A program made the position numbers and the translations under genes. The notes below the pieces were generated by a model. That model saw only the letters and a program-made list of their open reading frames with translations, ran no database searches and was not told where the DNA came from. A stretch of DNA of 32,442 bases from Granulicella sp. (GTDB taxonomy: Bacteria; Acidobacteriota; Terriglobia; Terriglobales; Acidobacteriaceae): assembly GCA_027365345.1 (NCBI GenBank), contig DAHXNO010000164.1, positions 1 through 32,442 of the forward strand, in the 5' to 3' direction. This document shows positions 5,434 to 32,105 of the stretch, piece after piece. The number at the start of each line of letters is the position of its first letter. Positions within the stretch are counted from its first letter, which is position 1.

Positions 5434-6981
5434 ATGTGCGGTATCGTTGGGGTCTTTGGCCGTAGTCCTGTAAGCGCAGTCATCTACGAGAGTCTTTCCA
5501 TGCTCCAGCATCGTGGCCAGGATGCTGCCGGGATTGCGACCTGCTTTGAGGACCGCTTCTATCTGGAGAAGGGAAACGGTCTGCTCACCGATGTCTTCGA
5601 CGCTGGAACCATGGCGCGGCTGTTGGGCAATATGGGGGTGGGCCATGTGCGTTACCCCACGGCGGGTTGCGCGTCCGTAGCCGAGGCGCAGCCGTTTTAT
5701 GTCAACTCTCCCTACGGCATCATCTTTGCCCATAACGGCAATCTGACCAACGTCTCGGAGATTGTGGAGAGCCTGTTTCAGACGGATATGCGCCATCTGA
5801 ATACCAGTTCAGACTCCGAGGTGATGCTCAACGTCTTTGCGCACGCTCTGGCCCGCCGCGGAGCCGTGCATCCCAACGAGTTCGATATCTTTGCCGCTGT
5901 GGAAGAGGTGCATCGCCGCTGTAAGGGCGGCTACGCCGTGGTTGCCATGGTGGCCGGCGTGGGCATGATTGCCTTCCGCGATCTCCACGGCATACGGCCA
6001 TTGGTCTTTGGCCTCCGTGGAGATGGGGGCATGCGCGGCGAAGCGGGAGTTCACGAATATGGACGGGAGGCCGAGTACATGGTGGCCTCTGAGACGGTGG
6101 CGCTTCAGGTGAGTGGGTTTCATGTGGATCACGATCTGGCCCCGGGCGAGGTGATCTTTATTGACATGGAGGGTGTCGTCTATACACACCAAAGCCTCCA
6201 GGCGCATGAAAAATCTCCGTGTCTCTTCGAGTTTGTCTATCTGGCGCGTCCGGATTCGGTGCTGGATGGAGCATCGGTCTATCAATGCCGCATCAATATG
6301 GGAACCAAGTTGGCCAGGAAGATTCAACGCGAGTGGGCCCACGTTCCCATTGATGTGGTCATTCCCATCCCATCCACCAGCCGCGTCGCCGCACAGGAGA
6401 TTGCTACTCGGCTGAACCTCCCTTACCGGGATGCGCTGGTTCGAAATCGATACGTCGGCCGCACGTTTATTATGCCCGGACAGGCCCAGCGCAAGCAGTC
6501 CATTCGACGCAAACTGAATCCGATCCCGCAGGTGTTTCAAGGCAAGAAGGTGCTGCTGGTGGATGACTCGATTGTGCGCGGGACCACCATCCGAGAGATT
6601 ATTGCGATGGTGCGGGAGCAAGGCGCGGAGAAAGTATACGTCTGCTCGGCAGCGCCACCGGTGCGTTTTCCTAACGTCTATGGCATTGACATGCCGGCTC
6701 GTTCTGAGCTGATTGCCAGCGGACGAAACGTGGCTCAACTGGCAAAGGAGATTGGAGCGGACGATCTCATCTTCCAGGATCTTGAGGACCTCAAGCAGGC
6801 GATCACCGAGGCATCCCCCGGCCTGACGCACTTTGACACCTCCGTCTTCGACGGCGTTTACGTCACCGGAGACATCACGGAGGAGTATCTCAATACACTG
6901 GAACAGAAGCGCAACGACGCCGCCAAATATACCTCCGATGTCGCCAGCCATATCACGAGAAATCTCTATGCCCATCTCTAA
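5434..6981 (+). CDS. purF: Amidophosphoribosyltransferase PurF
   Basis: The first committed step of purine synthesis: PRPP plus glutamine gives phosphoribosylamine. The 515-residue protein begins MCGIVG, so Cys2 becomes the N-terminal nucleophile once Met is removed, without a propeptide. The glutaminase domain fills the first half. The PRPP-binding motif VLLVDDSIVRGTT lies at about residues 373-385 in the phosphoribosyltransferase domain. The C-terminal half matches the E. coli type (FPNVYGIDMP, SVFDGVYVTGDI) and lacks the C-terminal Cys pair that holds the [4Fe-4S] cluster in the Bacillus type, so no cluster is expected. A GAGG sequence precedes the ATG. It is the first gene of an eight-gene pur operon and overlaps purL by 14 bases. 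Confidence 0.98.
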   Translation: MCGIVGVFGRSPVSAVIYESLSMLQHRGQDAAGIATCFEDRFYLEKGNGLLTDVFDAGTMARLLGNMGVGHVRYPTAGCASVAEAQPFYVNSPYGIIFAHNGNLTNVSEIVESLFQTDMRHLNTSSDSEVMLNVFAHALARRGAVHPNEFDIFAAVEEVHRRCKGGYAVVAMVAGVGMIAFRDLHGIRPLVFGLRGDGGMRGEAGVHEYGREAEYMVASETVALQVSGFHVDHDLAPGEVIFIDMEGVVYTHQSLQAHEKSPCLFEFVYLARPDSVLDGASVYQCRINMGTKLARKIQREWAHVPIDVVIPIPSTSRVAAQEIATRLNLPYRDALVRNRYVGRTFIMPGQAQRKQSIRRKLNPIPQVFQGKKVLLVDDSIVRGTTIREIIAMVREQGAEKVYVCSAAPPVRFPNVYGIDMPARSELIASGRNVAQLAKEIGADDLIFQDLEDLKQAITEASPGLTHFDTSVFDGVYVTGDITEEYLNTLEQKRNDAAKYTSDVASHITRNLYAHL

Positions 6982-9900
6982 ACAGGGTGGGCTTACCGTG
7001 CGGGTGTTGCCCGGACCAGCGGCGCTGACTTCATTCGAGGCGTCACGGATGCTCCAGCGAATCCGCGCCAATCACCCCACCGAGACGGCCCACGCAATTG
7101 GAGTGGAAGCCCACTACCTGTACCTGCTCTTGCTCTCTTCCGAAGCAGAGAAGCAGATCGATCCTGCGCGCCTGCAGGAACTACTGGGCTCAGGCAAAGA
7201 AATAGATCCAGCAACGGTTCCAGAGGCGATGGAGGGATACGCAGTGTGGATTGGGCCGCGCCTGGGAACTCAGTCGCCGTGGTCGAGCAAGGCAACCGAC
7301 ATCCTGCGCAATACCGGCTTTGAGTCCATTATCAGAATGGAACGTGCGCGGATGGTGCGAATCCTCACCTCCAACGGCCGTCCCGTGGAGAGGCTTTCCA
7401 TCGTCGCGGGTTCACTCCACGATCGCATGACTGAAAGCGTCTTCTACCGTGGAGCGGAGGAGTTGCGGGCCCTGTTTGCGCCCCGGCAACAGAAGCCGCT
7501 CGCGCAAATCGATGTCCTCAGATCGGGAGAAGCAGCGATCCTTACCGCCGACCGCGCTCTGGGACTCTGGCTCGCAAACGATGAGATCCAGTATCTGGTA
7601 AGCGAGTTTCAAAGGCTTGGCCGCAATCCTACCGATGTTGAGTTGTACATGTTTGCCCAGGCCAACAGCGAACACTGTCGGCATAAGATCTTCAACGCCA
7701 CCTGGACCATCGACGGAATCAAGCAGACGCGGTCACTCTTTCAGATGATTCGCAATACCTATGAGGTCTCCGGTCAGGATGTCCTCTCGGCTTACCGGGA
7801 CAATGCCGCGGTGATTCGCGGCGGCAGGGGGGGAAGGTTCTTTCCAGCGCCGGAGGATGGCCTTTACCGGTACCACCAGGAAGAGATCCATCTTCTCGCA
7901 AAGGTGGAGACGCACAACCATCCCACGGCCATCTCTCCCTGGCCCGGTGCCGCTACCGGATCCGGCGGAGAGATCCGCGATGAAGGAGCCACAGGACGGG
8001 GCGCCAAGCCTAAGGCCGGACTCTGTGGATTTACGGTTTCCAATCTGCATCTGCCGCAGTCGCCGCAGCCGTGGGAGCAAGAGTTTGGCCGACCGGCGTC
8101 AATCGCCTCTCCGCTGGAGATTATGATTGAGGGTCCGCTGGGCGCCTCAGCTTACAACAACGAGTTTGGCCGGCCCGCCCTGTGTGGCTACTTCCGCACC
8201 TATCAGCAGCGCGGCGTGGGCGGCGACGGCGGATCGCAACCGTCAGTCGTCTTTGGTTACCATAAGCCGATCATGCTGGCCGGAGGGTTGGGGAATATCC
8301 GTGCGGAGCATGTTGAGAAGGGGCAGATCAGGCCGGGCGATGCGCTCGTCGTGCTGGGCGGCCCGGCGATGCTGATCGGGCTTGGGGGAGGAGCGGCCTC
8401 CAGCGCTGCTGGAAGTGGGGATACCGAGCTCGATTTCGCCTCCGTTCAGCGCGGCAACGCGGAGATGGAGCGCCGCGCTCAGGAGGTCATCGATCGCTGC
8501 TGGCAGCTCGGCGACCGGAATCCCATCGCCTTTATCCATGATGTGGGAGCAGGCGGCTTGTCCAATGCTCTTCCAGAGCTGATCAAGGACGGCGGCTGCG
8601 GCGGCCGCTTCGATCTGGCCGCTATTCCGTGCGCAGAGGCGGGGCTCAGCCCTCTGGAGATCTGGTGCAATGAGGCGCAGGAGCGTTACGTGCTGGCCGT
8701 CGCACCCCAGAACCTGGAGGCGTTCGCTGCCATCTGCAAGCGCGAACGTTGCCCCTTCGCGGTGGTGGGCCATGCTGAACAAGAGAGCCACCTGACGCTG
8801 CGCGGCAGCTCGAGTTCGCCTCAGGCTGCTCCGCCCATCGATCTACCCTTGCCGGTGCTCTTCGGAAAGCCGCCCAGGATGGAGCGAGCCTTCTCCCGCT
8901 CCCGCATCGCAACCCAGCCGCTCAATCTGTCCGGAGTGACCATCGACGACGCGGTTGAGCGGTTGCTTCGCCTGCCCGCTATCGCCTCCAAGTCCTTTCT
9001 CATTACGATTGGAGATCGCAGCATTACGGGCAGCGTTGTTCAGGACCAAATGGTGGGTCCATGGCAGGTACCCGTGGCGGATTGCGCCGTTACCCTGGGA
9101 GCGTATGACGCATTCTGGGGTGAGGCGATGGCGATCGGCGAGCGGACACCGCTGGCGGTGATCGATGCACCCGCCTCAGCGCGAATGGCCGTTGCGGAGG
9201 TGATTACCAATCTTGCCGGGGCGGCAATCGCAAACCTGAGCGACATCAAACTCTCTGCCAACTGGATGGCCGCCGCCGGCGAGGGGCAGGAGGACCAGAA
9301 GCTCTTTGATGCCGTTCAGGCCGTGGGGATGGAGTTCTGCCCCGCTCTGGGGATAACGATTCCGGTGGGCAAGGATTCCATGTCCATGAAGACCATGTGG
9401 CGGCAGGATGGGGAAGACCGCAAAGTCATCTCACCCCTCTCGCTCATCGTCTCCGGCTTTGCGCCGGTCAGCGATGTGCGCCGCACCCTGACGCCACAAC
9501 TGCAGCCCGGCGAAGCCGAACTTCTCCTCATCGATCTAGGCGAGGGAAGGAACCGGTTGGGTGGCTCCTCCCTGGCGCAAGTCTATGGCCAGGTGGGCGA
9601 TGAAACCCCGGACGCACCGGAACCGGCTCTGCTCAAAGAGTTCTTTGCCCTGCTGCGTCAGCTCCACGCCGAAGAAAAAATCCTGGCCTATCACGACCGC
9701 AGCGATGGCGGCCTGTTCGTGACCCTGCTGGAGATGGCCTTTGCCGGCAGGATGGGATTGGAGATTGAGCTGCCCTCGCCAACGCTGGAGGCGCTGTTCA
9801 GTGAAGAACTGGGAGCTGTCATTCAGATTCGGAGCCACGACATCCAGGAGATTCAACTGCGGTTGAAGTCAGCCGGAATCAAGGCGCAACGGGTTGGGTG

Positions 9901-10909
9901 CGCCGTGCCGGGGAATGGTATCATCGTGCGCCGTGCCGGGGAAACAAACGCCGGATCCGGCGCTCCGGTTGTCTACCGCAGGCAGCGTACGGTTCTTCAC
10001 CAGATATGGTCAGAGACCAGCTTCCATATTCAGTCGCTGCGCGATAACCCAGAGAGCGCCTTGCAGGAGTTCGCGCTGCTCCAGGACTCGGATCGTCCCG
10101 GACTTGCGGTGCGCGTGCCCTTCGATCCTGGCGAGCGAGTTTCGGCTCCGTTTGTGCATGGCGCGCGCCCCAGGGTGGCCATCCTCCGCGAGCAGGGAGT
10201 GAACGGACAGGTGGAGATGGCTGCGGCCTTCGATCGTGCCGGTTTTCTCGCCCAGGATGTCACCATGAGCGATCTGCTGGACAAGCGGGTAAACCTCACC
10301 GGATTTCAAGGACTCGCCGCCTGCGGCGGTTTCTCCTACGGGGACGTGCTGGGGGCCGGAAGCGGATGGGCGAAGACGATTCTCTTCAATCAACGGTTGA
10401 AGGATGCCTTCGCAGCCTTCTTCGAGCGGCCAGAGACCTTCTCGCTGGGGGTCTGCAACGGGTGTCAGATGATGGCGCAGCTTCGCCAGATCATTCCGGG
10501 GGCGCAGGGATGGCCCCAATTTGAGCCCAACCTGTCTTCACGCTTTGAGGCGCGTCTCTGCATGGTGGAGATTCAGCCGTCGCCGTCTATCTTCTTTGCC
10601 GGCATGGCCAGAGCGCAGATTCCGATTGTGGTGGCCCACGGTGAGGGCCATGTCGCCTCCATCAGCCCGGATGCCACGGTTGGATTGCGCTACATTGATA
10701 CCTATGGCAAGGTCACGGAGCACTATCCGCTCAATCCAAGTGGATCCGTGCAGGGAGTTGCCGGGGTCAGCAGCGCCGACGGACGGGCGCTGATCCTGAT
10801 GCCGCACCCGGAGCGCGTCTTTCTGGGAGTACAGCACACTTGGACGAGAGACTTAAAGGATAGTCCGTGGCAAAGAATGTTTGATAACGCACGCAAGTGG
10901 GTTGGGTAG
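6968..10909 (+). CDS. purL: Phosphoribosylformylglycinamidine synthase, long single-chain PurL
   Basis: Converts FGAR, ATP and glutamine to FGAM. At 1313 residues this is the fused form (E. coli about 1295) that carries its own glutaminase, so no purS or purQ is needed and none is seen. The conserved NSEHCRH lies near residue 235. The C-terminal class I amidotransferase domain has nucleophile Cys1163 in GVCNGCQ and the His1280/Glu1282 pair in PHPER. I take ATG 6968 as the start: it overlaps the end of purF by 14 bases, giving translational coupling, and the protein from here matches the family N-terminus; in-frame codons further upstream lie deep inside purF. The Shine-Dalgarno is weak, consistent with coupling. 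Confidence 0.97.
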   Translation: MPISKQGGLTVRVLPGPAALTSFEASRMLQRIRANHPTETAHAIGVEAHYLYLLLLSSEAEKQIDPARLQELLGSGKEIDPATVPEAMEGYAVWIGPRLGTQSPWSSKATDILRNTGFESIIRMERARMVRILTSNGRPVERLSIVAGSLHDRMTESVFYRGAEELRALFAPRQQKPLAQIDVLRSGEAAILTADRALGLWLANDEIQYLVSEFQRLGRNPTDVELYMFAQANSEHCRHKIFNATWTIDGIKQTRSLFQMIRNTYEVSGQDVLSAYRDNAAVIRGGRGGRFFPAPEDGLYRYHQEEIHLLAKVETHNHPTAISPWPGAATGSGGEIRDEGATGRGAKPKAGLCGFTVSNLHLPQSPQPWEQEFGRPASIASPLEIMIEGPLGASAYNNEFGRPALCGYFRTYQQRGVGGDGGSQPSVVFGYHKPIMLAGGLGNIRAEHVEKGQIRPGDALVVLGGPAMLIGLGGGAASSAAGSGDTELDFASVQRGNAEMERRAQEVIDRCWQLGDRNPIAFIHDVGAGGLSNALPELIKDGGCGGRFDLAAIPCAEAGLSPLEIWCNEAQERYVLAVAPQNLEAFAAICKRERCPFAVVGHAEQESHLTLRGSSSSPQAAPPIDLPLPVLFGKPPRMERAFSRSRIATQPLNLSGVTIDDAVERLLRLPAIASKSFLITIGDRSITGSVVQDQMVGPWQVPVADCAVTLGAYDAFWGEAMAIGERTPLAVIDAPASARMAVAEVITNLAGAAIANLSDIKLSANWMAAAGEGQEDQKLFDAVQAVGMEFCPALGITIPVGKDSMSMKTMWRQDGEDRKVISPLSLIVSGFAPVSDVRRTLTPQLQPGEAELLLIDLGEGRNRLGGSSLAQVYGQVGDETPDAPEPALLKEFFALLRQLHAEEKILAYHDRSDGGLFVTLLEMAFAGRMGLEIELPSPTLEALFSEELGAVIQIRSHDIQEIQLRLKSAGIKAQRVGCAVPGNGIIVRRAGETNAGSGAPVVYRRQRTVLHQIWSETSFHIQSLRDNPESALQEFALLQDSDRPGLAVRVPFDPGERVSAPFVHGARPRVAILREQGVNGQVEMAAAFDRAGFLAQDVTMSDLLDKRVNLTGFQGLAACGGFSYGDVLGAGSGWAKTILFNQRLKDAFAAFFERPETFSLGVCNGCQMMAQLRQIIPGAQGWPQFEPNLSSRFEARLCMVEIQPSPSIFFAGMARAQIPIVVAHGEGHVASISPDATVGLRYIDTYGKVTEHYPLNPSGSVQGVAGVSSADGRALILMPHPERVFLGVQHTWTRDLKDSPWQRMFDNARKWVG

Positions 10910-10947
10910 TGGCATGGCATGGCAGGGAAGGGAACGCAGGGTATGAG

Positions 10948-12015
10948 GTGGCTGGATTGAGCGCAAAGGTTGATTACAGATCTGCGGGTGTGGATATCGA
11001 AGCTGGGAATGAGGCGGTGCGGCGAATCAAGTCGCACGTTGCCAAGACGCATTCTCCGGCGGTCTTGACCGGGCTCGGATCCTTTGGCAGCCTGTTCTCC
11101 CTGGGCAGCGCACTGAAGGATCTCAAGGATCCGGTGATGGTGCAGAGTACAGACGGCGTGGGGACAAAGAGCAAGGTTACGGTAATGGCCGGACGCTATG
11201 AGGCCCTGGGGCATGATCTGGTGGCTGCCGTTGCCGGCGATATTTTGGTGATGGGCGCAAGGCCACTCACCTTTCTCGACTACCTCGGCTTCCACAAAGT
11301 GGAACCGGAGATTGTTGAGGCCCTGGTGCGCGGCATGAGTGCCGCTTGCCAGGAGGCGGGAATCTCTCTGGTAGGTGGAGAGACGGCGGAGATGCCGGCG
11401 GTCTACGCCGAGGGCGATCTGGATGTGGTTGGATTCGTCACCGGAGTGGTGGATCGCCAGCGGCTCCTGACGGGAGCGAACATCGTGGCGGGCGATGTGC
11501 TCTACGCCATCAACTCCTCTGGACTGCATACCAACGGCTTTTCGCTCGCCCGGAAGCTCATCTTTGAGATCGGGAGTTGTGGAATCAAAGACTGCCCGCC
11601 CGAATTGGGCGGCAAGTCGATTGCCGATGTGCTCCTGGCCCCACATGCCAATTACGTCACGCCGGTGCTGCAAATCCTGGATGCCGGGATTCCCATCAAA
11701 GGCATGGCCCACATCACCGGTGGCGGCCTCGTGGAGAATGTGCCGCGCATCGTTCCAGAGGGCCTGGGCGTGGTGATTGATCGCTCCACTTGGCAGCCTC
11801 AACCCATCTTTGGCTGGATGCAGCGCCTCGGCAGCATCGACGATCAGGAGATGTTCCGTACCTTCAATATGGGTGTGGGATTGGTTTTAATAGGCCCGCC
11901 GGGAATCCAGGCGGATATGGCTGCCGTTCTCAAACAGTTTCCATCCTTCCAATTCTGGGAGTTGGGACGAGTGGAGGCGAATGCATCCGGCGTAAGGTTC
12001 AGTGAGGTGGTTTGA
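10948..12015 (+). CDS. purM: Phosphoribosylformylglycinamidine cyclo-ligase (AIR synthetase) PurM
   Basis: Closes FGAM to aminoimidazole ribotide with ATP. Family hallmarks are all present: DYRSAGVDIEAGN near the N-terminus, STDGVGTK in the ATP-binding region, SLVGGETAEMP, SSGLHTNG and the C-terminal HITGGGLVEN. The start is not an ATG. I favour GTG 10948, with CAGG seven bases upstream, giving 355 residues; TTG 10957, with GAGG eight bases upstream, is nearly as good. The frame is open further upstream to a GTG at 10897 inside purL, but those extra residues look like translated non-coding sequence. It follows purL by 38 bases, the largest gap in the operon, and is one base from purC. Confidence 0.96.
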   Translation: MAGLSAKVDYRSAGVDIEAGNEAVRRIKSHVAKTHSPAVLTGLGSFGSLFSLGSALKDLKDPVMVQSTDGVGTKSKVTVMAGRYEALGHDLVAAVAGDILVMGARPLTFLDYLGFHKVEPEIVEALVRGMSAACQEAGISLVGGETAEMPAVYAEGDLDVVGFVTGVVDRQRLLTGANIVAGDVLYAINSSGLHTNGFSLARKLIFEIGSCGIKDCPPELGGKSIADVLLAPHANYVTPVLQILDAGIPIKGMAHITGGGLVENVPRIVPEGLGVVIDRSTWQPQPIFGWMQRLGSIDDQEMFRTFNMGVGLVLIGPPGIQADMAAVLKQFPSFQFWELGRVEANASGVRFSEVV

Positions 12016-12016
12016 G

Positions 12017-12970
12017 ATGGAACGAAAGATACTTCTGGACGCCATTCCGAGTTGTGTGACAGCAACGGACCTGCCGCTTCCGGCCAAGTATCCGGGCAAG
12101 GTGCGGGATACCTATGACCTGGGAGATGGTCGTCTGCTGCTCGTTACCACCGATCGCCAGAGCGGTTTCGACCGGATGCTGGGCGCGATTCCATACAAAG
12201 GGCAAGTCTTGAACCGGACATCCCTCTACTGGTTTCAACAGACGCGCGAGATCATTCCCAACCATGTTCTATCCAGCCCGCACGCCAACGCCGTGATTGC
12301 TCGCAAATGTAAAGTTCTGCCCATTGAGTTTGTGGTGCGCGGATATATGACCGGCTCGACGGATACCTCGATCTGGACGCAGTACCAGAGAGGCGTCCGT
12401 AGCTACTGTGGGCATCCCTTGCCGGAGGGGATCAAGAAGAATCAGCCGCTCCCTGCTCATATCGTCACGCCAACCACCAAAGAGACCTTGCACGACCGGC
12501 CCATCAGCGCGGACGAGATCGTGGCGGAGGGCTGGATCACCGCACCCCAGTGGGAGATTGCCTCTGCCAAGGCCCTGGAGCTGTTCGCCTATGGTCAGCA
12601 CCTTGCCGCGCAGCGCGGGCTCATCCTGGCCGATACCAAGTATGAGTTTGGTGTCGCCCCGAATGGCGAGGTGTTGTTGATCGATGAGATCCATACGCCA
12701 GACTCCAGCCGTTATTGGCTGGCGGATAGCTACGCGGAACGAATCGCTGCCGGCCAGGAACCCAATATGATCGACAAGGAGTTCTTTCGTCTCTGGTTCA
12801 GGGAGCGCTGCGATCCGTACCAGGATGCTGTGCTCCCAACACCGCCGGATGACCTGATTGTCGAGCTGGCGTCGCGCTACATACAACTCTTTGAAAAAAT
12901 CACCGGAACGGCGTTTCAGCCAGATGAGAGACCGTTGGAAGAGACGGTGATGGCGAGTTTGAGACAATGA
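12017..12970 (+). CDS. purC: SAICAR synthetase PurC
   Basis: Joins CAIR and aspartate to give SAICAR using ATP. I set the start at ATG 12017, one base after the purM stop, with GAGG about ten bases upstream; this gives 317 residues. It is the longer PurC type, like yeast ADE1 (about 306 residues), rather than the short form of about 240 residues in E. coli and Bacillus. Visible motifs are GKVRDTYDLG for nucleotide binding, TTDRQSGFDR, EFVVRGYMTGS and the metal-proximal LIDEIHTPDSSRYW. The final A of its TGA stop codon lies inside an ATGA overlap with purD. Confidence 0.97.
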   Translation: MERKILLDAIPSCVTATDLPLPAKYPGKVRDTYDLGDGRLLLVTTDRQSGFDRMLGAIPYKGQVLNRTSLYWFQQTREIIPNHVLSSPHANAVIARKCKVLPIEFVVRGYMTGSTDTSIWTQYQRGVRSYCGHPLPEGIKKNQPLPAHIVTPTTKETLHDRPISADEIVAEGWITAPQWEIASAKALELFAYGQHLAAQRGLILADTKYEFGVAPNGEVLLIDEIHTPDSSRYWLADSYAERIAAGQEPNMIDKEFFRLWFRERCDPYQDAVLPTPPDDLIVELASRYIQLFEKITGTAFQPDERPLEETVMASLRQ

Positions 12971-14289
12971 GTGAGACCATTCTTGTTGTGGGTTCAGGAG
13001 CGCGTGAGCACGCCATCGCGCGTGCCTTGGCGCACTCGCCGGAGTGCCCCCGGCTGCTCTGCTTCAGCACAGTAAGCAATCCCGGCATTGTGGCTTTGTG
13101 TTCGGAGTATGGCCTGGGGAGCATCACGGATCCGGAGGCTGTTGCCTCCTTTGCCCGGAGACACGGAGCCACGCTGGCTGTGATTGGGCCAGAGGCTCCG
13201 CTGGCCACCGGCGTTGCGGACGCCTTGTGGGCCGCAGGAGTCCCTGTGGTTGGACCGAAACAGAGCCTGGCCCGAATCGAGTCCAGCAAAGGCTTTGCCC
13301 GCGGCCTCTTGGCTAGACATGGGATTTCAGGCAACCCGTTCTTCCAGCGCTTTGCCTCAATGGATGGCGTGGAGAAGGTGCTGGCAGCGTATGACAACCG
13401 GCATGTGATCAAGGATGATGGCCTGGCCGGGGGCAAAGGGGTGAAGGTCTGCGGCGACCACCTGCTCTCCATCCAGGACAGCCTCGCATTCTGCCGGGAG
13501 CTGGTACAGCAGGGGCATCCATTTGTGGTGGAAGAGAAACTTGAGGGCGAGGAGTTCTCTCTGATGAGCTTCTGCGACGGAGAGACGCTGCGGCATATGC
13601 CGGCTGTGCAGGATCACAAGCGCGCCTACGAGGGAGACAAGGGACCAAACACCGGCGGCATGGGAGCCTATACGGCAGCCGGCCACAAACTGCCATTCCT
13701 GAGCGACGAAGATATTCGGCAAGCTCAAGAGATCAACCAGCGCGTTGCCGCCGCGCTCGCTGAAGAGTGTGGCATGCCGTATCAGGGCATTCTCTACGGG
13801 GGCTTTATGGCTACTCGGGAGGGCGTTAAGTTAATTGAATACAACGCCCGGTTTGGAGACCCGGAGTCGCTCAACTTGTTGACGCTTCTGGAGTCAGACC
13901 TGGTCGCCCTCTGCCGAGCGATCGTGAACCAGACATTGAAGGACGTTCAGGCGCATTTCTCTCCGCTTGCCAGCGTCTGCAAGTATCTGGTTCCGGAGGG
14001 GTACCCGGACCAGCCCCGCAAAGGGGACCGGGTTCTGCTGCCGGCAGACCTGCCCAAGGGCGTAACCATGTTCCTGAGCGCAGTGGACGTGAAGGACCAT
14101 ATCCTGGTAGCCACCGGCTCCCGCACTGTTGCCGTGGTGGGAGTTGGGGACAACCTGGCTGAGGCGGAGGCTCGTTGTGAAGAGGTGGTGCGGATGATTC
14201 CGGGCCCCTTTTTTCATCGCGCTGACATTGGTACCGAGCAGGCCATTGCTCGGCGCGTGGAGCATATGAAGGCGGTGCGGCTGTCATGA
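12967..14289 (+). CDS. purD: Phosphoribosylamine-glycine ligase PurD (archaeal-like type)
   Basis: Ligates glycine to phosphoribosylamine, forming GAR with ATP. The 440-residue ATP-grasp enzyme starts at an ATG overlapping the purC stop (ATGA). Motifs are the N-terminal VVGSGAREHAIA, VIGPEAPLATG, the grasp loop DDGLAGGKGVKV, EEKLEGEEFSL, QDHKRAYEGDKGPNTGGMG and the metal site IEYNARFGDPES. Several of these (IESSKGFARGLL, GISGNPFF, GGKGVKVCGDHL, AYEGDKGPNTGG) resemble archaeal PurD sequences as I know them more than the usual bacterial form, which has KADGLAAGKGV and a different loop. That reading is from memory, not alignment. It also overlaps purN by four bases, so it is coupled on both sides. 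Confidence 0.96.
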   Translation: MSETILVVGSGAREHAIARALAHSPECPRLLCFSTVSNPGIVALCSEYGLGSITDPEAVASFARRHGATLAVIGPEAPLATGVADALWAAGVPVVGPKQSLARIESSKGFARGLLARHGISGNPFFQRFASMDGVEKVLAAYDNRHVIKDDGLAGGKGVKVCGDHLLSIQDSLAFCRELVQQGHPFVVEEKLEGEEFSLMSFCDGETLRHMPAVQDHKRAYEGDKGPNTGGMGAYTAAGHKLPFLSDEDIRQAQEINQRVAAALAEECGMPYQGILYGGFMATREGVKLIEYNARFGDPESLNLLTLLESDLVALCRAIVNQTLKDVQAHFSPLASVCKYLVPEGYPDQPRKGDRVLLPADLPKGVTMFLSAVDVKDHILVATGSRTVAVVGVGDNLAEAEARCEEVVRMIPGPFFHRADIGTEQAIARRVEHMKAVRLS

Positions 14290-14879
14290 GTTTGAAGGTT
14301 GGAGTGTTGGGCTCGACGCGCGGAACAGCGTTGCAGGGCGTCTTGGATGCGATCGCCGCCGGGATGCTGGACGCTGAGATTGTCCTCGTGATCTCGGACA
14401 AGCAAACGGCGCCGATTCTGGAGCGGGCCGCCCGCCACGGCGTGGCCGCCCTCTTTTTGGATCCTGCGGGGCTGGAGCGACAGGCGTATGACCGCCAGGT
14501 GAGCCAGGTGCTTCACGGAGCCGGAGCGGAGTTGGTCTTGTTGATCGGCTACATGCGCATCGTCTCAGCATCGTTTGTCCAGACCTGGAAGGGCAGGCTG
14601 TTGAATGTGCATCCATCCCTTCTTCCTCAGTTTCCCGGGCTGATGAATCGAAAGGTGCATGAAGCGGTGCTGGCTGCTGACGTTCCAGAGACCGGATGCA
14701 CCATTCATCAGGTGACCGAAGAGGTGGATGGAGGACCCATTGTTCTACAAAAGCGTTGCTCTGTGCTTCCCGGCGATACGGTGGATCTGTTGAAGGACAG
14801 GGTGCAGAGCCTGGAGCAAGAGGCGTTTGTAGAGGTGCTAAGAGGCTGGAAACAAGGCAGAGGGAGTACCGGAGCATGA
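14286..14879 (+). CDS. purN: GAR formyltransferase PurN
   Basis: Transfers a formyl group from 10-formyl-tetrahydrofolate to GAR. The protein has 197 residues, close to the usual 190-215. The catalytic triad is in place: Asn107 and His109 in [10 protein letters not shown] and Asp148 in VTEEVDGGP (E. coli Asn106, His108, Asp144). The N-terminal phosphate-binding loop reads GSTRGTALQ instead of the common SGxGSNLQ, placing it in a less common PurN subgroup. The start overlaps the purD stop by ATGA, and its own stop overlaps purE in the same way. Its presence makes a formate-dependent PurT unnecessary for this pathway. Confidence 0.95.
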
Positions 14880-15430
14880 CGACGGAGCGGAAGCGGAGCA
14901 CCCACACAAACAGGACGAGGCAAGCCAGCGCAGCATCCCGGCCGACGGCCGCAGTCGGCATCATTATGGGCTCCCGCTCGGACTGGCCAACCATGCAGGC
15001 CGCGGCAGATCTCCTGGAAGAGTTTGGCATCGCCTATGAGCTTCAGGTAGTCTCTGCCCACCGTACTCCGGACAAGATGATGCATTACGCCGAAAGCGCC
15101 GACGAACGAGGTCTGCGCATCATTATTGCTGGCGCAGGAGGAGCCGCGCATCTGCCTGGCATGGTGGCCGCCAAAACAACGTTGCCCGTGCTCGGCGTGC
15201 CCGTCAAGAGTCGCGCTCTCAAAGGTCTCGACTCCTTGCTCTCCATCGCCCAGATGCCCGCTGGCATCCCCGTGGCGACGTTTGCGATCGGTGAGGCCGG
15301 AGCCAGGAATGCCGGCTTGTTTGCCGTATCGATTCTTGCGCTGGAGAATAAGACCTTGGCGCACAAGCTGGAAAAATTTCGCCGCAACCAGACAAAGGCT
15401 GTCTTGAAAGGTCCAGACCCACGTCGATGA
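14876..15430 (+). CDS. purE: N5-CAIR mutase PurE (class I)
   Basis: Rearranges N5-carboxyaminoimidazole ribotide to CAIR, working with PurK. From the ATG at 14876, which overlaps the purN stop by four bases, the product is 184 residues. Core motifs are MGSRSDW (31-37), SAHRTP (60-65, with the catalytic His62) and [12 protein letters not shown]. The first 27 residues are a basic, Thr/Arg/Ser-rich extension absent from E. coli PurE (169 residues); no better internal start codon is evident, so it is probably translated. The adjacent purK supports class I PurE over the direct AIR carboxylase. Confidence 0.96.
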
Positions 15431-16518
15431 GCCAAGTGGATCAGAAAAATAGCCACCCAAGAATCGGTATTCTTGGCGCCGGACAACTAGCCTTGATGTT
15501 GGCCCAGGCTGCCCCAGCACTGGATATCGAGGTTATTTGCGCGGGCAGCCCCGGCGACTGCGCCAGCCAGGCCGCAGAGGTTCGCTCCGTAGATCTGGAT
15601 GACGTCTCTGCTGTGGCGGCGTTCGCGCATACAGTAGACCTGGTTACGGTGGAGAGCGAAAATATCCATGCGGATGTGCTGCAGGGGCTCAACCTCTATC
15701 CCAACGCGCACGCGATTGCCGTCGCTCAGGAACGTTTGCTGGAGAAGCAATTCTTCCGGGAGTGTGGCATTGCCACCGCTCCGTTCGCTCCGGTGGAGAG
15801 CCTCGACGATCTGCAGCGAGCCATCGAAGAGATCCGCCTCCCGGCCATCCTGAAGACCCGGCGCCTGGGATACGACGGCAAGGGCCAGGTGCGCTTGGCC
15901 CATGCGGAAGAGGCAGCCGAGGCATGGGCCTCTGTCGGTGGCGTTCCATGCATTCTGGAGGGGATGGTCCGCTTCGACGCGGAGGTTTCGCTGATCGCGG
16001 CCCGCAGTCGGATGGGAGAGATTGTCTTCTATCCGCTGGTGCAGAACCATCACCATGAAGGGATCCTGCGTGTCTCTATCGCTCCGTTTCTGCATCAGGC
16101 TCTCCAGAATCAGGCGAATCAGTATCTGACGGTTTTACTGGAAAAGCTGAACTATGTCGGCGTGCTCGCCGTGGAGTTCTTCGTAGAGAGCGGAAAATTG
16201 CTGGCCAATGAAATGGCGCCGCGAGTTCACAACTCCGGGCATTGGACCATCGAGGGCTCTGCAACATCCCAGTTTGAGAATCACCTCCGAGCCATTGCCG
16301 GAAGGGAACTGGGCAGTACGGAAAGCCGGCCCACCGTGATGTTGAACTGCATTGGAACCATGCCGCCTGAGATCGAAACGTTGGCCTTCCCAAGTCTATT
16401 TCGTCACGATTACGGCAAAGAAGCACGGCCAGGGCGCAAGGTCGGGCATCTTGCGTTTGTGGCGGCAGACCAACCCGCGATCGTGGAATGGAAGCAGAGA
16501 TTGCAAGGCCGATCATAA
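15427..16518 (+). CDS. purK: N5-CAIR synthetase PurK
   Basis: Carboxylates aminoimidazole ribotide with bicarbonate and ATP to give the substrate of PurE. The 363-residue ATP-grasp protein starts in an ATGA overlap with purE. Features are [11 protein letters not shown] near residues 15-24, [12 protein letters not shown] (grasp loop), [19 protein letters not shown] and the metal/substrate motif [14 protein letters not shown]. The usual TFEFENI is replaced by VTVESENI, which is conservative. It is the last gene of the pur operon; the next gene faces it 40 bases away. Confidence 0.96.
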
Positions 16519-27480: not shown

Positions 27481-27650
27481 CAAGCGTCGGCCTGCTCCCT
27501 GGATGCTCTCAGCGTACTTTCCTTGGCCCATCGAACCCCTACTGGACCCCCTTGCCCCCTCCAGCAGCCATCTCCCGTCACCGCTCCCGCACTCCTCCGC
27601 CCAGAATCCTTCCGCTGGGTGGTAACCTTCCCTCAGATGAGGTTTGCTCC

Positions 27651-28802
27651 GTGAACGTCGTGATCGCAACGGGTCGCCAGGCGCATTACAGCCTGCCTGC
27701 TAACGCCTTTGTGCGGCGCGGTTTTGACGTCTGCCTTTATACCACCACTCCCCGCAGCCGCATGCGAAACTTTCATCCTGCCGTTCGCACCCGCTGGGTT
27801 CCCGCTCCGGTCGCTCTCTTCAGCGGGCTCACCCACTGGAAGACCCCGCTGGTCCTGGATGAGCTGGACTCCACCCTGTTTGACCGCTTGACAGCAGCAG
27901 CGCTCAAGAGCTGTGACCTGCTTCTGGGCGCGTCCACATCGAGCCTGGCGACGGGAATCGCCGCAAAACGCGACGGCGGCGTCTTCGTTCTGGACCGCGC
28001 CTGCCCGGACATACGCGTACAACAGAAGATGATGGTCGAAGAGGCGCGCAAGGTCGGCGGCGTCTTTCGCCCCAACTCTCCCTGGTTCATCGAACGTCAG
28101 GTACAGGAGTACGAACAGGCAGACTTCATTGTCGCGCCTTCAGAGTACAGCCGGCGGAGCTATCCAGAGCATCTGCGCAAGAAAACTGTCCTGGCGCCTC
28201 TCTACGGCCGCTCCAAGGTCTCCCCGCGCTCTCCCAGACCAGCCGGCTCCCCCTTTGTTCTGGGCGTAGTGGGTGGCCAGCCGTTGAGAAAGGGATACTT
28301 GTATCTGCTGCAGGCGTGGAAGGAACTCGCCCTGCCCCATGCCCAGCTCAGAATTCGCTCCGGCGACGCCATCTTTCGCTATCCCGTGCTCAACCGCCTG
28401 CTCGCAGAGCTGCCAAACGTTGAGCTGGTCGGCTACGTCCCTGACATCAGCGAATTCTATGCCGCCTGCGATGCCTTCATCCTGCCCAGCGTCGATGACG
28501 GTTTTGGGATGGCCCTCTTTGAAGCGCTCGCCAACGGCGTACCCTCGATTGCTACGCGACACTGTGGCGCCTCCGAGTTGCTTGCTCCAGAGCAAGATTT
28601 CATTTTGATTGAACCGTTTAGCGTGGAAGATATCAAGCAATCCGTGCAGCGTCTTTACGATTCTCAAGAGCTTCGCGAAAGGCTTGCGAATCAAGGGCCG
28701 GTTGCCATTCAGGCACTCGAATCGGCAGGCTTGCCCCGACCGTATGAGGATGGGCTGGACCAGCTCCTCCAGGCCATCCAGGCACACCAGGTCACGGTGT
28801 AA
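27651..28802 (+). CDS. GT4-like (GT-B fold) glycosyltransferase
   Basis: A 383-residue cytoplasmic or membrane-associated sugar transferase. I place the start at GTG 27651: GAGG lies eight bases upstream and the domain begins at once with VNVVIATGRQAHYSLP; the upstream open frame is Pro/Arg-rich noise. The C-terminal Rossmann domain carries the donor-binding signature as DGFGMALFE, Asp283 and Glu291, an EX7E motif with the first Glu changed to Asp. Preceding text such as LVGYVPDISEFYAACDAFILPS is classic for GT4. Donor and acceptor are not readable. It stands alone between two minus-strand units; its stop is 21 bases from the thiS stop. Confidence 0.88.
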   Translation: MNVVIATGRQAHYSLPANAFVRRGFDVCLYTTTPRSRMRNFHPAVRTRWVPAPVALFSGLTHWKTPLVLDELDSTLFDRLTAAALKSCDLLLGASTSSLATGIAAKRDGGVFVLDRACPDIRVQQKMMVEEARKVGGVFRPNSPWFIERQVQEYEQADFIVAPSEYSRRSYPEHLRKKTVLAPLYGRSKVSPRSPRPAGSPFVLGVVGGQPLRKGYLYLLQAWKELALPHAQLRIRSGDAIFRYPVLNRLLAELPNVELVGYVPDISEFYAACDAFILPSVDDGFGMALFEALANGVPSIATRHCGASELLAPEQDFILIEPFSVEDIKQSVQRLYDSQELRERLANQGPVAIQALESAGLPRPYEDGLDQLLQAIQAHQVTV

Positions 28803-28823: not shown

Positions 28824-29072
28824 CTACATTGGATTAGAAGATAGAGTAGAAGTTCCTCCACCAACAAAGTGAACGATCTCCAGGCGATCACCCTCTACGA
28901 TCTGGACCTCGCTCCAACTCGTCCTGGGGATAATCTCTCCGTTGAGCTCCACGGCAATACGGTCCCCTTTGAGGCCCAGGGATTGGACCACGAGGGCCAA
29001 TGCTGCAGGTGACGAGAGCTCTTCTACGATCTGCTGATGACCGTTGATCTGGATGCTGAGGGATGAAGCCAT
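28824..29072 (-). CDS. thiS: Sulfur-carrier protein ThiS with a C-terminal tail
   Basis: A beta-grasp protein of 82 residues that would carry sulfur as a C-terminal thiocarboxylate for the thiazole half of thiamin. The order SLSIQINGHQ, VVQSLGL, IAVELNGEIIPRTSW, VEGDRLEIVHFVGGG is fully typical of ThiS. Normal ThiS ends at the Gly-Gly. Here three glycines (residues 71-73) are followed by nine more residues, TSTLSSNPM, before the stop, which would block adenylation unless removed. The start ATG 29072 lacks a strong Shine-Dalgarno. It lies 145 bases after thiD; thiG, thiF and thiH are not in the window. Identification as ThiS is firm; function with the tail is uncertain. Confidence 0.88.
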   Translation of the reverse strand: MASSLSIQINGHQQIVEELSSPAALALVVQSLGLKGDRIAVELNGEIIPRTSWSEVQIVEGDRLEIVHFVGGGTSTLSSNPM

Positions 29073-29217: not shown

Positions 29218-30099
29218 TCACATAAACTGCCAAAACAGATGGAGCGGGCCATTTCCGTGGCCCAGGTTGGGAGCATGGCGGATAGCTTCGGAGACGAAGT
29301 GCTTGGCCCCACGGACAGCCTCCACCGGAGTGTCGCGCAGAATCAGGTGACACAGCAGAGACGAAGAGAAGGCGCAACCAGTCCCGTGGGTGGCGTTGGA
29401 CTCAATGTGTTCTCCCGCATATCTGTGCATATCTCCTGACGGCAGCAGCAGAAGATCCGTGGGCTGGGAGTGATCCCCGGCGGTGGCGACGATGTGCAGG
29501 TGAGGGTGTCTCCTGGCCAGAGCGCGGCTGGCGGCTTCGGCTTCATTAAGAGTCTCCACCGGAAGAGTTGTCAGCGCAGAGAGCTCTCTCCAGTTGGGAG
29601 TGATCCAGGTGACCAGGGGCAAAAGAGTCTCGTGGAGAGATTCGACAGCGTCCGGCGGAAGCAGATCGGCTCCGGAGGTCGAGCGGAGGATGGGATCGAG
29701 GATGATCGGTACAGGGGACTGACGGGAGGGGGGCTTATTCCCTGCCACGGCCCGCGCCGCTGGGGCCTGGATCGCTCCCCGATACGCCGCCAGAAACTCC
29801 ACAACTGCGGCGATGGTCGCAATCGAACCTAACATTCCAATCTTGATCCCTGCCGGCGGAAGGTCGGCGGCCAGGTGGTCAAGCGCGTGGCGCACAAAGG
29901 CAGTGTCGACTGGCTGAACCTCCTCCACCCCCAAGGTGGACTGCACAGTAAGAGCGGTCAGAACCGACGTTCCGAAGAATCGGTGGGCTGAAAAGGTCTT
30001 AAGATCCGCCGTAATGCCCGCGCCGTTGGAAGGGTCGTGACCCGCAATCGTCAGGAGCGTTCGCGGCGCAACTGCGGCTGGAGAGGAAAAATCAGGCAC
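29218..30099 (-). CDS. thiD: HMP/HMP-P kinase ThiD
   Basis: Phosphorylates hydroxymethylpyrimidine and its monophosphate, supplying the pyrimidine half of thiamin. The protein has 293 residues against about 266 for E. coli; the extra length includes an insertion of about 20 residues ([15 protein letters not shown] region). Family signatures are [20 protein letters not shown] at the N-terminus, [33 protein letters not shown] (normally TPNxxE) and the anion-hole/catalytic motif [10 protein letters not shown] (Thr237 to Cys242). It is followed by thiS and is divergent from the rlpA-like gene across an AT-rich promoter region. I find no TPP riboswitch consensus before it. Confidence 0.95.
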
Positions 30100-31047: not shown

Positions 31048-31980
31048 CTAAGCGACCGGCATTTGTCCTGGCCGCCCGTGGGTGACCGGCATGTCGCTCA
31101 GGCGCAGCGCCAACGAGTTGGCGCCCCCTCCACCTTTGATGAACTCGCTCAGTTCGAGCTGAACCACGTCAAAGCCGGCATCGAAGAGCCGGGTTGCCAG
31201 TTCACGGCTGATCTCGCCGGTGAAGATGGTGCGGCCAAGATTCAGAGCGCAGCATGCCATGTGGGTGGCATCCAACTCAGAGATCGCGAAGCGGTGGTCG
31301 GCCGGATACGCACGCTCGATCGCAGCGATAGACGCAGCGTCGAAGGCGCCAGGATAGTACAGCAGGTAGCCGTCACCCGCGCCGGTCGGGTTCGCCAGCG
31401 GGGTGAAGCACGTATCCAGATGGTAGAAGCGCGGATCCGTCAGGTGTAGCGAGGTGATAGGCACCTGCCACGCATCAGCCACGTGACGGTGAGCAGCGCG
31501 GCACGTCCGTACGCCATGCGCTGCCCATAACGCAGTCCCCTTTTCGTTGAAAGCTACATCGCCCCCGCCCTCAAAGGGGGTCTCACGCGGCGTCTCCCAT
31601 ATCAGAAATCCCTCGTTACTCAGCCACCGGCGCAGGTGGACTGTCTCCGCGCGGCGCTGCTGCGGGTTGAAGCTGGAGACCGCGGCCACACCATGGTGGA
31701 TAAGAGCTCCGTGGGCAATAAACACCATGTCCGGACAGTCCGGTTCAGGTCGAAGCAGCCGAACGTCGGCTACGCTGCGCAGCACGTTGTGCATGCTCTT
31801 CCATTGGGCGAAGGCAAGATCGCGGGATGATCGATGCACATTTCCCGCCATCCACGGGTTCAACACATAATCGACTCCATACCACTCGGGCGAACACATC
31901 AGGAAGGTTGGGCGGGTAAACTGGGGCGTGGAGGCGAAACTCTTTGAAGCGTCGAGTGAAACAGCAGTACTGATGACCAT
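31048..31980 (-). CDS. Amidinotransferase/DDAH-fold protein lacking the nucleophile Cys
   Basis: A 310-residue protein of the amidinotransferase (guanidine-modifying, PF02274-like) superfamily, whose active members use Cys-His-Glu/Asp to act on arginine-type guanidines. Family landmarks are FIAHGALIHHG-type text near the N-terminus, EGGGD (Glu137 to Asp141), the catalytic-His motif FYHLDTCF (His187), and the C-terminal SEFIKGGGGANSLALRL. In the last motif the nucleophile Cys is expected at the position held here by Ser289 (TCG, 31114-31116), as in DDAH GGLSCLSLR. I take ATG 31980 as start, with AGGA ten bases upstream. The protein may be catalytically dead, may use Ser, or may bind a guanidine or citrulline compound. 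It is monocistronic. Confidence 0.8.
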   Translation of the reverse strand: MVISTAVSLDASKSFASTPQFTRPTFLMCSPEWYGVDYVLNPWMAGNVHRSSRDLAFAQWKSMHNVLRSVADVRLLRPEPDCPDMVFIAHGALIHHGVAAVSSFNPQQRRAETVHLRRWLSNEGFLIWETPRETPFEGGGDVAFNEKGTALWAAHGVRTCRAAHRHVADAWQVPITSLHLTDPRFYHLDTCFTPLANPTGAGDGYLLYYPGAFDAASIAAIERAYPADHRFAISELDATHMACCALNLGRTIFTGEISRELATRLFDAGFDVVQLELSEFIKGGGGANSLALRLSDMPVTHGRPGQMPVA

Positions 31981-32105
31981 AATGAAGAAATTCCTAACAC
32001 CGTGAAGGAGTGTCCTCCCCCGAGATGACAATCGTCAAGTAGGAAAGGTTACTCGAAGGGATCTACTCCTCCGAACCGCACAGATCATGAGACGCAGCGA
32101 GACGC

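Follow-up and report, generated by a model that had tools for sequence, protein, structure and literature searches.

The window is the entire 32,442-nucleotide contig C156 of a Granulicella sp. genome (4.2 Mb, 208 contigs, rated 100% complete). It carries a thiS gene on the minus strand, encoding the sulfur carrier of thiamine synthesis, whose features and immediate neighbours are as follows.

28824..29072, minus strand: thiS open reading frame, 82 amino acids, ATG to TAG (TIGR01683, 69.5 bits; PF02597, 51.7 bits)
28863..29072, minus strand: ThiS beta-grasp core up to HFV, residues 1-70 (AlphaFold2 model)
28854..28862, minus strand: codons GGT GGA GGA for Gly71-Gly72-Gly73, the expected C-terminus of the mature carrier (the TIGR01683 match ends at base 28854)
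28827..28853, minus strand: nine-residue tail TSTLSSNPM (from translation; no DNA conservation between species, low pLDDT)
28824..28826, minus strand: TAG stop codon of thiS
29218..30099, minus strand: thiD (HMP/HMP-P kinase), same strand, upstream of thiS with 145 bases between (TIGR00097, 213.6 bits, cut-off 204.95)
27552..28802, plus strand: convergent glycosyltransferase gene, ending 21 bases from the thiS stop (PF00534, PF13692)

Elsewhere in the window, positions 5434-16518 hold a run of purine biosynthesis genes, in which Pfam confirms PurF-like and PurL-like domains, the others being named from the open reading frame list. The minus-strand frame at 31048-32031 scores 21.5 bits against dimethylarginine dimethylhydrolase (PF19420), below the cut-off of 23, and ThiD (29218-30099) matches its families in two stretches, which suggests that some 20-30 residues are inserted ahead of residue 130. 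A search of the window against Rfam gave no match at gathering scores.

The ThiS match to TIGR01683 is well above the cut-off of 37.45 bits and spans the complete model (1-64). It stops at residue 73, the last glycine, leaving nine residues beyond it, as the initial annotation had claimed and as the translation confirms. The minus-strand translation of 28824-29072 has the C-terminal end EIVHFVGGGTSTLSSNPM, i.e. HFVGGG-TSTLSSNPM-stop, so that Gly-Gly is not terminal in the encoded protein. There is no second domain past the glycines, only the nine residues and then the TAG, and the protein is not a fusion. The AlphaFold2 model has a mean pLDDT of 87.4. Residues 1-70, with block scores between 88 and 97, are predicted to form the strands and helix of a beta-grasp fold; residues 71-80 average 54 and are modelled without secondary structure. 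The solved chain of Bacillus subtilis ThiS (1tyg_B) has a terminal GGG, like the core of the window ThiS, and that of Escherichia coli (1f0z) ends in GG; a Geobacter-type chain (2k5p) shows one residue past GGG in the alignment, although this chain may carry a tag. The third glycine is thus ordinary, and the anomaly lies in the nine residues that follow. The window ThiS is a precursor form, which would expose a terminal Gly-Gly only if processed.

Extensions of this kind turned out to be widespread among relatives. ThiS was found in 55 of 61 related genomes (the second ThiS of G033, at L061, being excluded), and in 42 of the 55 it continues beyond GGG, in two cases as a fusion to ThiG. Counting the tail from after GG plus one further G, 24 of 25 ThiS proteins of the genus carry 1 to 12 residues, only two tails being identical, and the close relatives thus do not all end at GGG. 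In the GTDB family as a whole 41 of 43 are tailed, with a median of 3 and a mean of 4.5 amino acids. The initial annotation's remark that such a tail is not the norm for ThiS holds in general; in this family the tail is the norm. A recent loss of the stop codon, which it offered as one explanation, is unsupported, and together with a sequencing error is rejected on the family-wide occurrence of tails.

The sequence of the tail, in contrast to its presence, is not conserved. Mean DNA identity over 300 pairs drops from 0.77 for the six bases that close the core to 0.30 for the six that follow, and then to about 0.25, and the tail DNA of different species is no more alike than unrelated DNA. A conserved maturation peptide is rejected on this fall in identity, and with it the suggestion that the tail is a maturation signal, in so far as this means a conserved sequence. 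The commonest tail residues are serine, leucine and threonine, and in an alignment of six the stop codon lies at a different position in every close relative. With a freely drifting stop codon, tails would average 28.5 codons at the same base composition; those observed are far shorter (p about 4e-19 if species are taken as independent). Tails are also missing less often in the family than a geometric fit predicts (2 observed vs. 7.8 expected, p 0.01). Tails that are short and yet rarely absent indicate that drift by itself does not fully account for the pattern.

We surveyed the window genome for other carriers and for enzymes that might act on them. The window ThiS is its only TIGR01683 match. 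ThiG also has a single match (355.6 bits), on contig C30, and no ThiS was seen among the open reading frames around it, so that there is no second functional thiS next to thiG. Four proteins match PF02597, namely ThiS, a CysO-like protein, a SAMP1-like protein and MoaD, and all four extend past Gly-Gly. The CysO-like protein, on C113, has 18 residues beyond Gly-Gly, and among NCBIfam models it matches SAMP1 best, narrowly exceeding the cut-off. The SAMP1-like carrier adjoins threonine synthase on C55 (L004, 161-1776) and continues after Gly-Gly for 11 residues, CCPCVEWRAKF. The MoaD domain, on C66, is extended by fusion to MoaE.

A search for a JAMM protease, proposed in the initial annotation, yielded one Prok-JAB gene in the genome (PF14464, 85 bits). 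It lies on C113 in a cysM-mec-cysO-moeZ cluster, adjoining the tailed CysO and MoeZ, and is absent from the window contig; ThiS and the JAMM gene are therefore not in one gene cluster. The protein carries the HxH-x7-S-x2-D motif (HSHPDHPAMWSPTD). Its best NCBIfam match is to desampylase (NF041370), with 79.8 bits against a cut-off of 130, which is too low for assignment to the desampylase equivalog. The genome has two ThiF-family proteins, one being the MoeZ of the C113 cluster, which has a rhodanese domain, the other a protein of 481 amino acids (L097, 1168-2613).

Thirty-one JAMM loci were read. The motif is present in 30 of the 31 JAMM proteins, the pattern failing to match in L075. A CysO neighbour was found in 26 loci, and 25 of these 26 extend past Gly-Gly, many with cysteine-rich tails; those of L078, L081, L069, L091 and L088 are strikingly rich in both cysteine and arginine. 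Three CysO proteins run on into MoeZ-like sequence, one of them confirmed by Pfam. The confirmed case (L082, 1872-3326) is a CysO-like carrier fused in frame to MoeZ, its presumed E1 with a rhodanese domain, and L079 and L084 encode putative fusions of this kind that run off the stretch.

Prok-JAB is nearly universal among the relatives (58 of 61 genomes, and 42 of 42 good genomes), which therefore offer no contrast in JAMM content. We compared the ends of ThiS with the presence of JAMM in two phyla. ThiS was scored as extended if it continued past Gly-Gly, as a tail or as a ThiG fusion. The genome-wide JAMM search covered PF14464 alone; genomes with a match of E below 1e-15 were scored as JAMM-positive and those between 1e-15 and 1e-8 as doubtful (two in Acidobacteriota, counted with the negatives, and six in Pseudomonadota, shown apart), weaker matches being presumed to represent RadC-like proteins. 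The Acidobacteriota sample comprised 149 genomes, 104 with a ThiS match and 97 with a ThiS end that was read; three genomes of the relatives set (G000, G018 and G033) and four with matches only under the cut-off (G093, G103, G128 and G160) are not among the 97, and second ThiS matches in a genome were not counted. The Pseudomonadota sample comprised 130 genomes, in which all 110 ThiS ends were read.

In Acidobacteriota, ThiS was extended in 27 of 52 JAMM-positive genomes vs. 1 of 45 others (Fisher p 1.4e-8, although species are not independent), the 27 consisting of 22 tails and 5 ThiG fusions. Counted by GTDB family, the proportions were 12 of 25 vs. 1 of 20, respectively (p 0.002). In Pseudomonadota, extension was seen in 32 of 66 JAMM-positive genomes, in none of 38 negatives and in none of the 6 doubtful ones (p 1.8e-8 without the six); here 28, the majority, were ThiG fusions, whose ThiS ends look alike, and 4 were tails. 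A set of named loci, 50 of whose 80 were tested for JAMM, gave 22 of 41 vs. 0 of 9 (p 0.003), this set partly overlapping the others (L243 lies in G218). Extended ThiS is thus confined almost entirely to JAMM-positive genomes across two phyla. Together with the gene inventory, this supports the link between the tail and a JAMM protease that the initial annotation suspected. The converse does not hold: about half of the JAMM-positive genomes in both phylum samples have an untailed ThiS, and JAMM is therefore permissive for extension rather than predictive of it. In two Acidobacteriota genomes (L204, 2486-3568; L212, 2471-3580) the in-frame fusion partner of ThiS is a DUF3667 protein, whose cysteine pattern resembles that of a zinc ribbon.

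The most likely explanation is that the window ThiS is a precursor cut by the Mec-type JAMM protease of the genome. From the gene inventory and the co-occurrence we infer the cleavage of ThiS, its position, the identity of the protease and the E1 that acts afterwards. According to this proposal, the gene would encode a normal ThiS made in precursor form; the metalloprotease encoded by the single Prok-JAB gene on C113 would hydrolyse the chain after the glycines, before adenylation, and expose the carboxylate; MoeZ or the second ThiF-family protein would then adenylate this carboxylate, and the adenylated ThiS would receive the sulfur destined for ThiG. The tail, which is short and exposed, would need no particular sequence. 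The stop codon would be free to drift because the protease tolerates whatever follows the glycines, and tails would therefore differ between sister species. The same enzyme may also free CysO, the carrier linked to threonine synthase and the MoaD half of MoaD-MoaE. A broader version, which we consider possible but rather doubtful, is that a single desampylase-like JAMM serves as general maturase in these Acidobacteriota: ThiS, CysO, the threonine-synthase-linked carrier and MoaD would all be made in blocked form, the synthesis of thiamine, cysteine and molybdenum cofactor would wait on one cut, and selection would maintain the short tail seen in 41 of 43 family members as a latent form instead of just permitting it.

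Some other peptidase, a carboxypeptidase or a general protease, might instead trim the tail back to the glycines, the link to JAMM then reflecting its role on CysO and MoaD in the same lineages. Tails that are short and without sequence pattern would suit such an enzyme, as would three incomplete genomes in which ThiS is tailed but no JAMM was detected (G019, 59% complete; G048, 73%; G197, 91% and in about 650 contigs), and which also count against cleavage by JAMM. However, the ThiS-ThiG fusions, which place some 260 further residues behind ThiS and would therefore need an endoprotease and not trimming from the end, obey the JAMM rule in 5 of 5 cases in Acidobacteriota and 28 of 28 in Pseudomonadota. 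We therefore regard trimming by another peptidase as unlikely. It is also improbable that JAMM and extended ThiS simply coincide in the same clades and are mechanistically unconnected. Species are not independent, and sign tests on the ThiS trees do lack power, with only 3 and 2 supported pairs in Acidobacteriota and Pseudomonadota, respectively, and the extension trait changes only 4 times on the Pseudomonadota tree. On the other side, the two phyla show the co-occurrence separately, and in Acidobacteriota the JAMM-positive genomes with extension come from 12 GTDB families, the trait changing 13 times, albeit on a weakly supported ThiS tree.

That the tail is a recent accident of one genome, through a lost stop or a sequencing error, or the mark of a decaying gene, is hard to credit: the stop position does differ in every close relative aligned, but 41 of 43 family members are tailed, and the conserved core (69.5 bits to TIGR01683) is the only such match in a genome rated 100% complete. 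Hardest of all to accept is that the tail stays on with a role of its own, thiazole sulfur being delivered without a free ThiS C-terminus; the scarcity of untailed members (2 of 43 vs. about 8 expected) would fit, but no tail sequence is conserved, and it is established that ThiS and MoaD are adenylated and thiocarboxylated at a free terminal glycine (PMC1779556).

If cleavage by JAMM is correct, a large group of soil bacteria, along with the bacteria that carry ThiS-ThiG fusions, need a JAMM protease to make thiamine; experiments in the literature consulted have so far drawn such a link only for other carriers. It would also provide a genomic rule, that a blocked ThiS implies a JAMM, which would help to assign substrates to bacterial JAMM proteins, and an example of how an enzyme that removes whatever trails a motif can let a stop codon wander. 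The co-occurrence suggests a testable protein-cutting step in the synthesis of vitamin B1.

A literature search for tailed ThiS, or for ThiS together with JAMM, found no paper on tailed ThiS; most subscription journals lay outside it, so that absence is not proven, and 'ThiS' is hard to search for, being also the word 'this'. Searches on HcyS/HcyD, QbsE and PdtH gave unrelated papers. Several known systems nevertheless resemble the one proposed. The initial annotation named two pairs as precedents for tail removal, of which CysO/Mec is only a loose parallel. In thioquinolobactin synthesis, QbsD removes the residues after Gly-Gly of QbsE; there, as proposed here, a JAMM protein removes a short stretch past Gly-Gly before activation, but the two form a dedicated pair in a siderophore operon, whereas here thiS adjoins thiD and the JAMM gene lies on another contig, beside cysO. 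Mec releases cysteine from the CysO-Cys adduct. The JAMM gene of the window genome sits in a cysM-mec-cysO-moeZ cluster, and removal of the ThiS tail would be a second role for an enzyme of this type. Ordinary ThiS proteins, such as those of B. subtilis (1tyg) and E. coli (1f0z), share the family, the fold and a core ending in GG or GGG, but have nothing past the glycines where the window ThiS has nine residues.

Iyer and others (2006, PMC1779556) drew attention to fusions of ThiS with ThiG and of MoaD with MoaE, and proposed that fused ThiS and MoaD are cleaved by JAB proteins. Such fusions resemble the window ThiS in lacking a free ThiS C-terminus, and differ from it in that the window ThiS has a short tail and no fusion partner. 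They also emphasised that operons for thiamine and molybdenum cofactor lack JAB genes, which counts against JAMM cleavage of ThiS; the text consulted mentions neither ThiS tails nor a genome-wide test of co-occurrence. The JAMM idea for fused ThiS is thus old, and what is new here is the family-wide occurrence of short tails and the co-occurrence in two phyla. Mycobacterium MoaX is cleaved at the Gly82-Ser83 bond, and the authors had not identified the protease responsible (PMC4326299), a point that also counts against the JAMM explanation. The DRJAMM protein of Deinococcus radiodurans, on the other hand, cuts the MoaD-MoaE fusion DR2607 to leave a C-terminal glycine (PMC8832034). In both cases a JAMM would free a carrier with an internal Gly-Gly, and the window genome has a MoaD-MoaE fusion as well; in DR2607, however, the carrier is MoaD, which belongs to the molybdenum pathway and is followed by an entire protein, whereas the substrate proposed here is the ThiS of the thiamine pathway, followed by nine unstructured residues.
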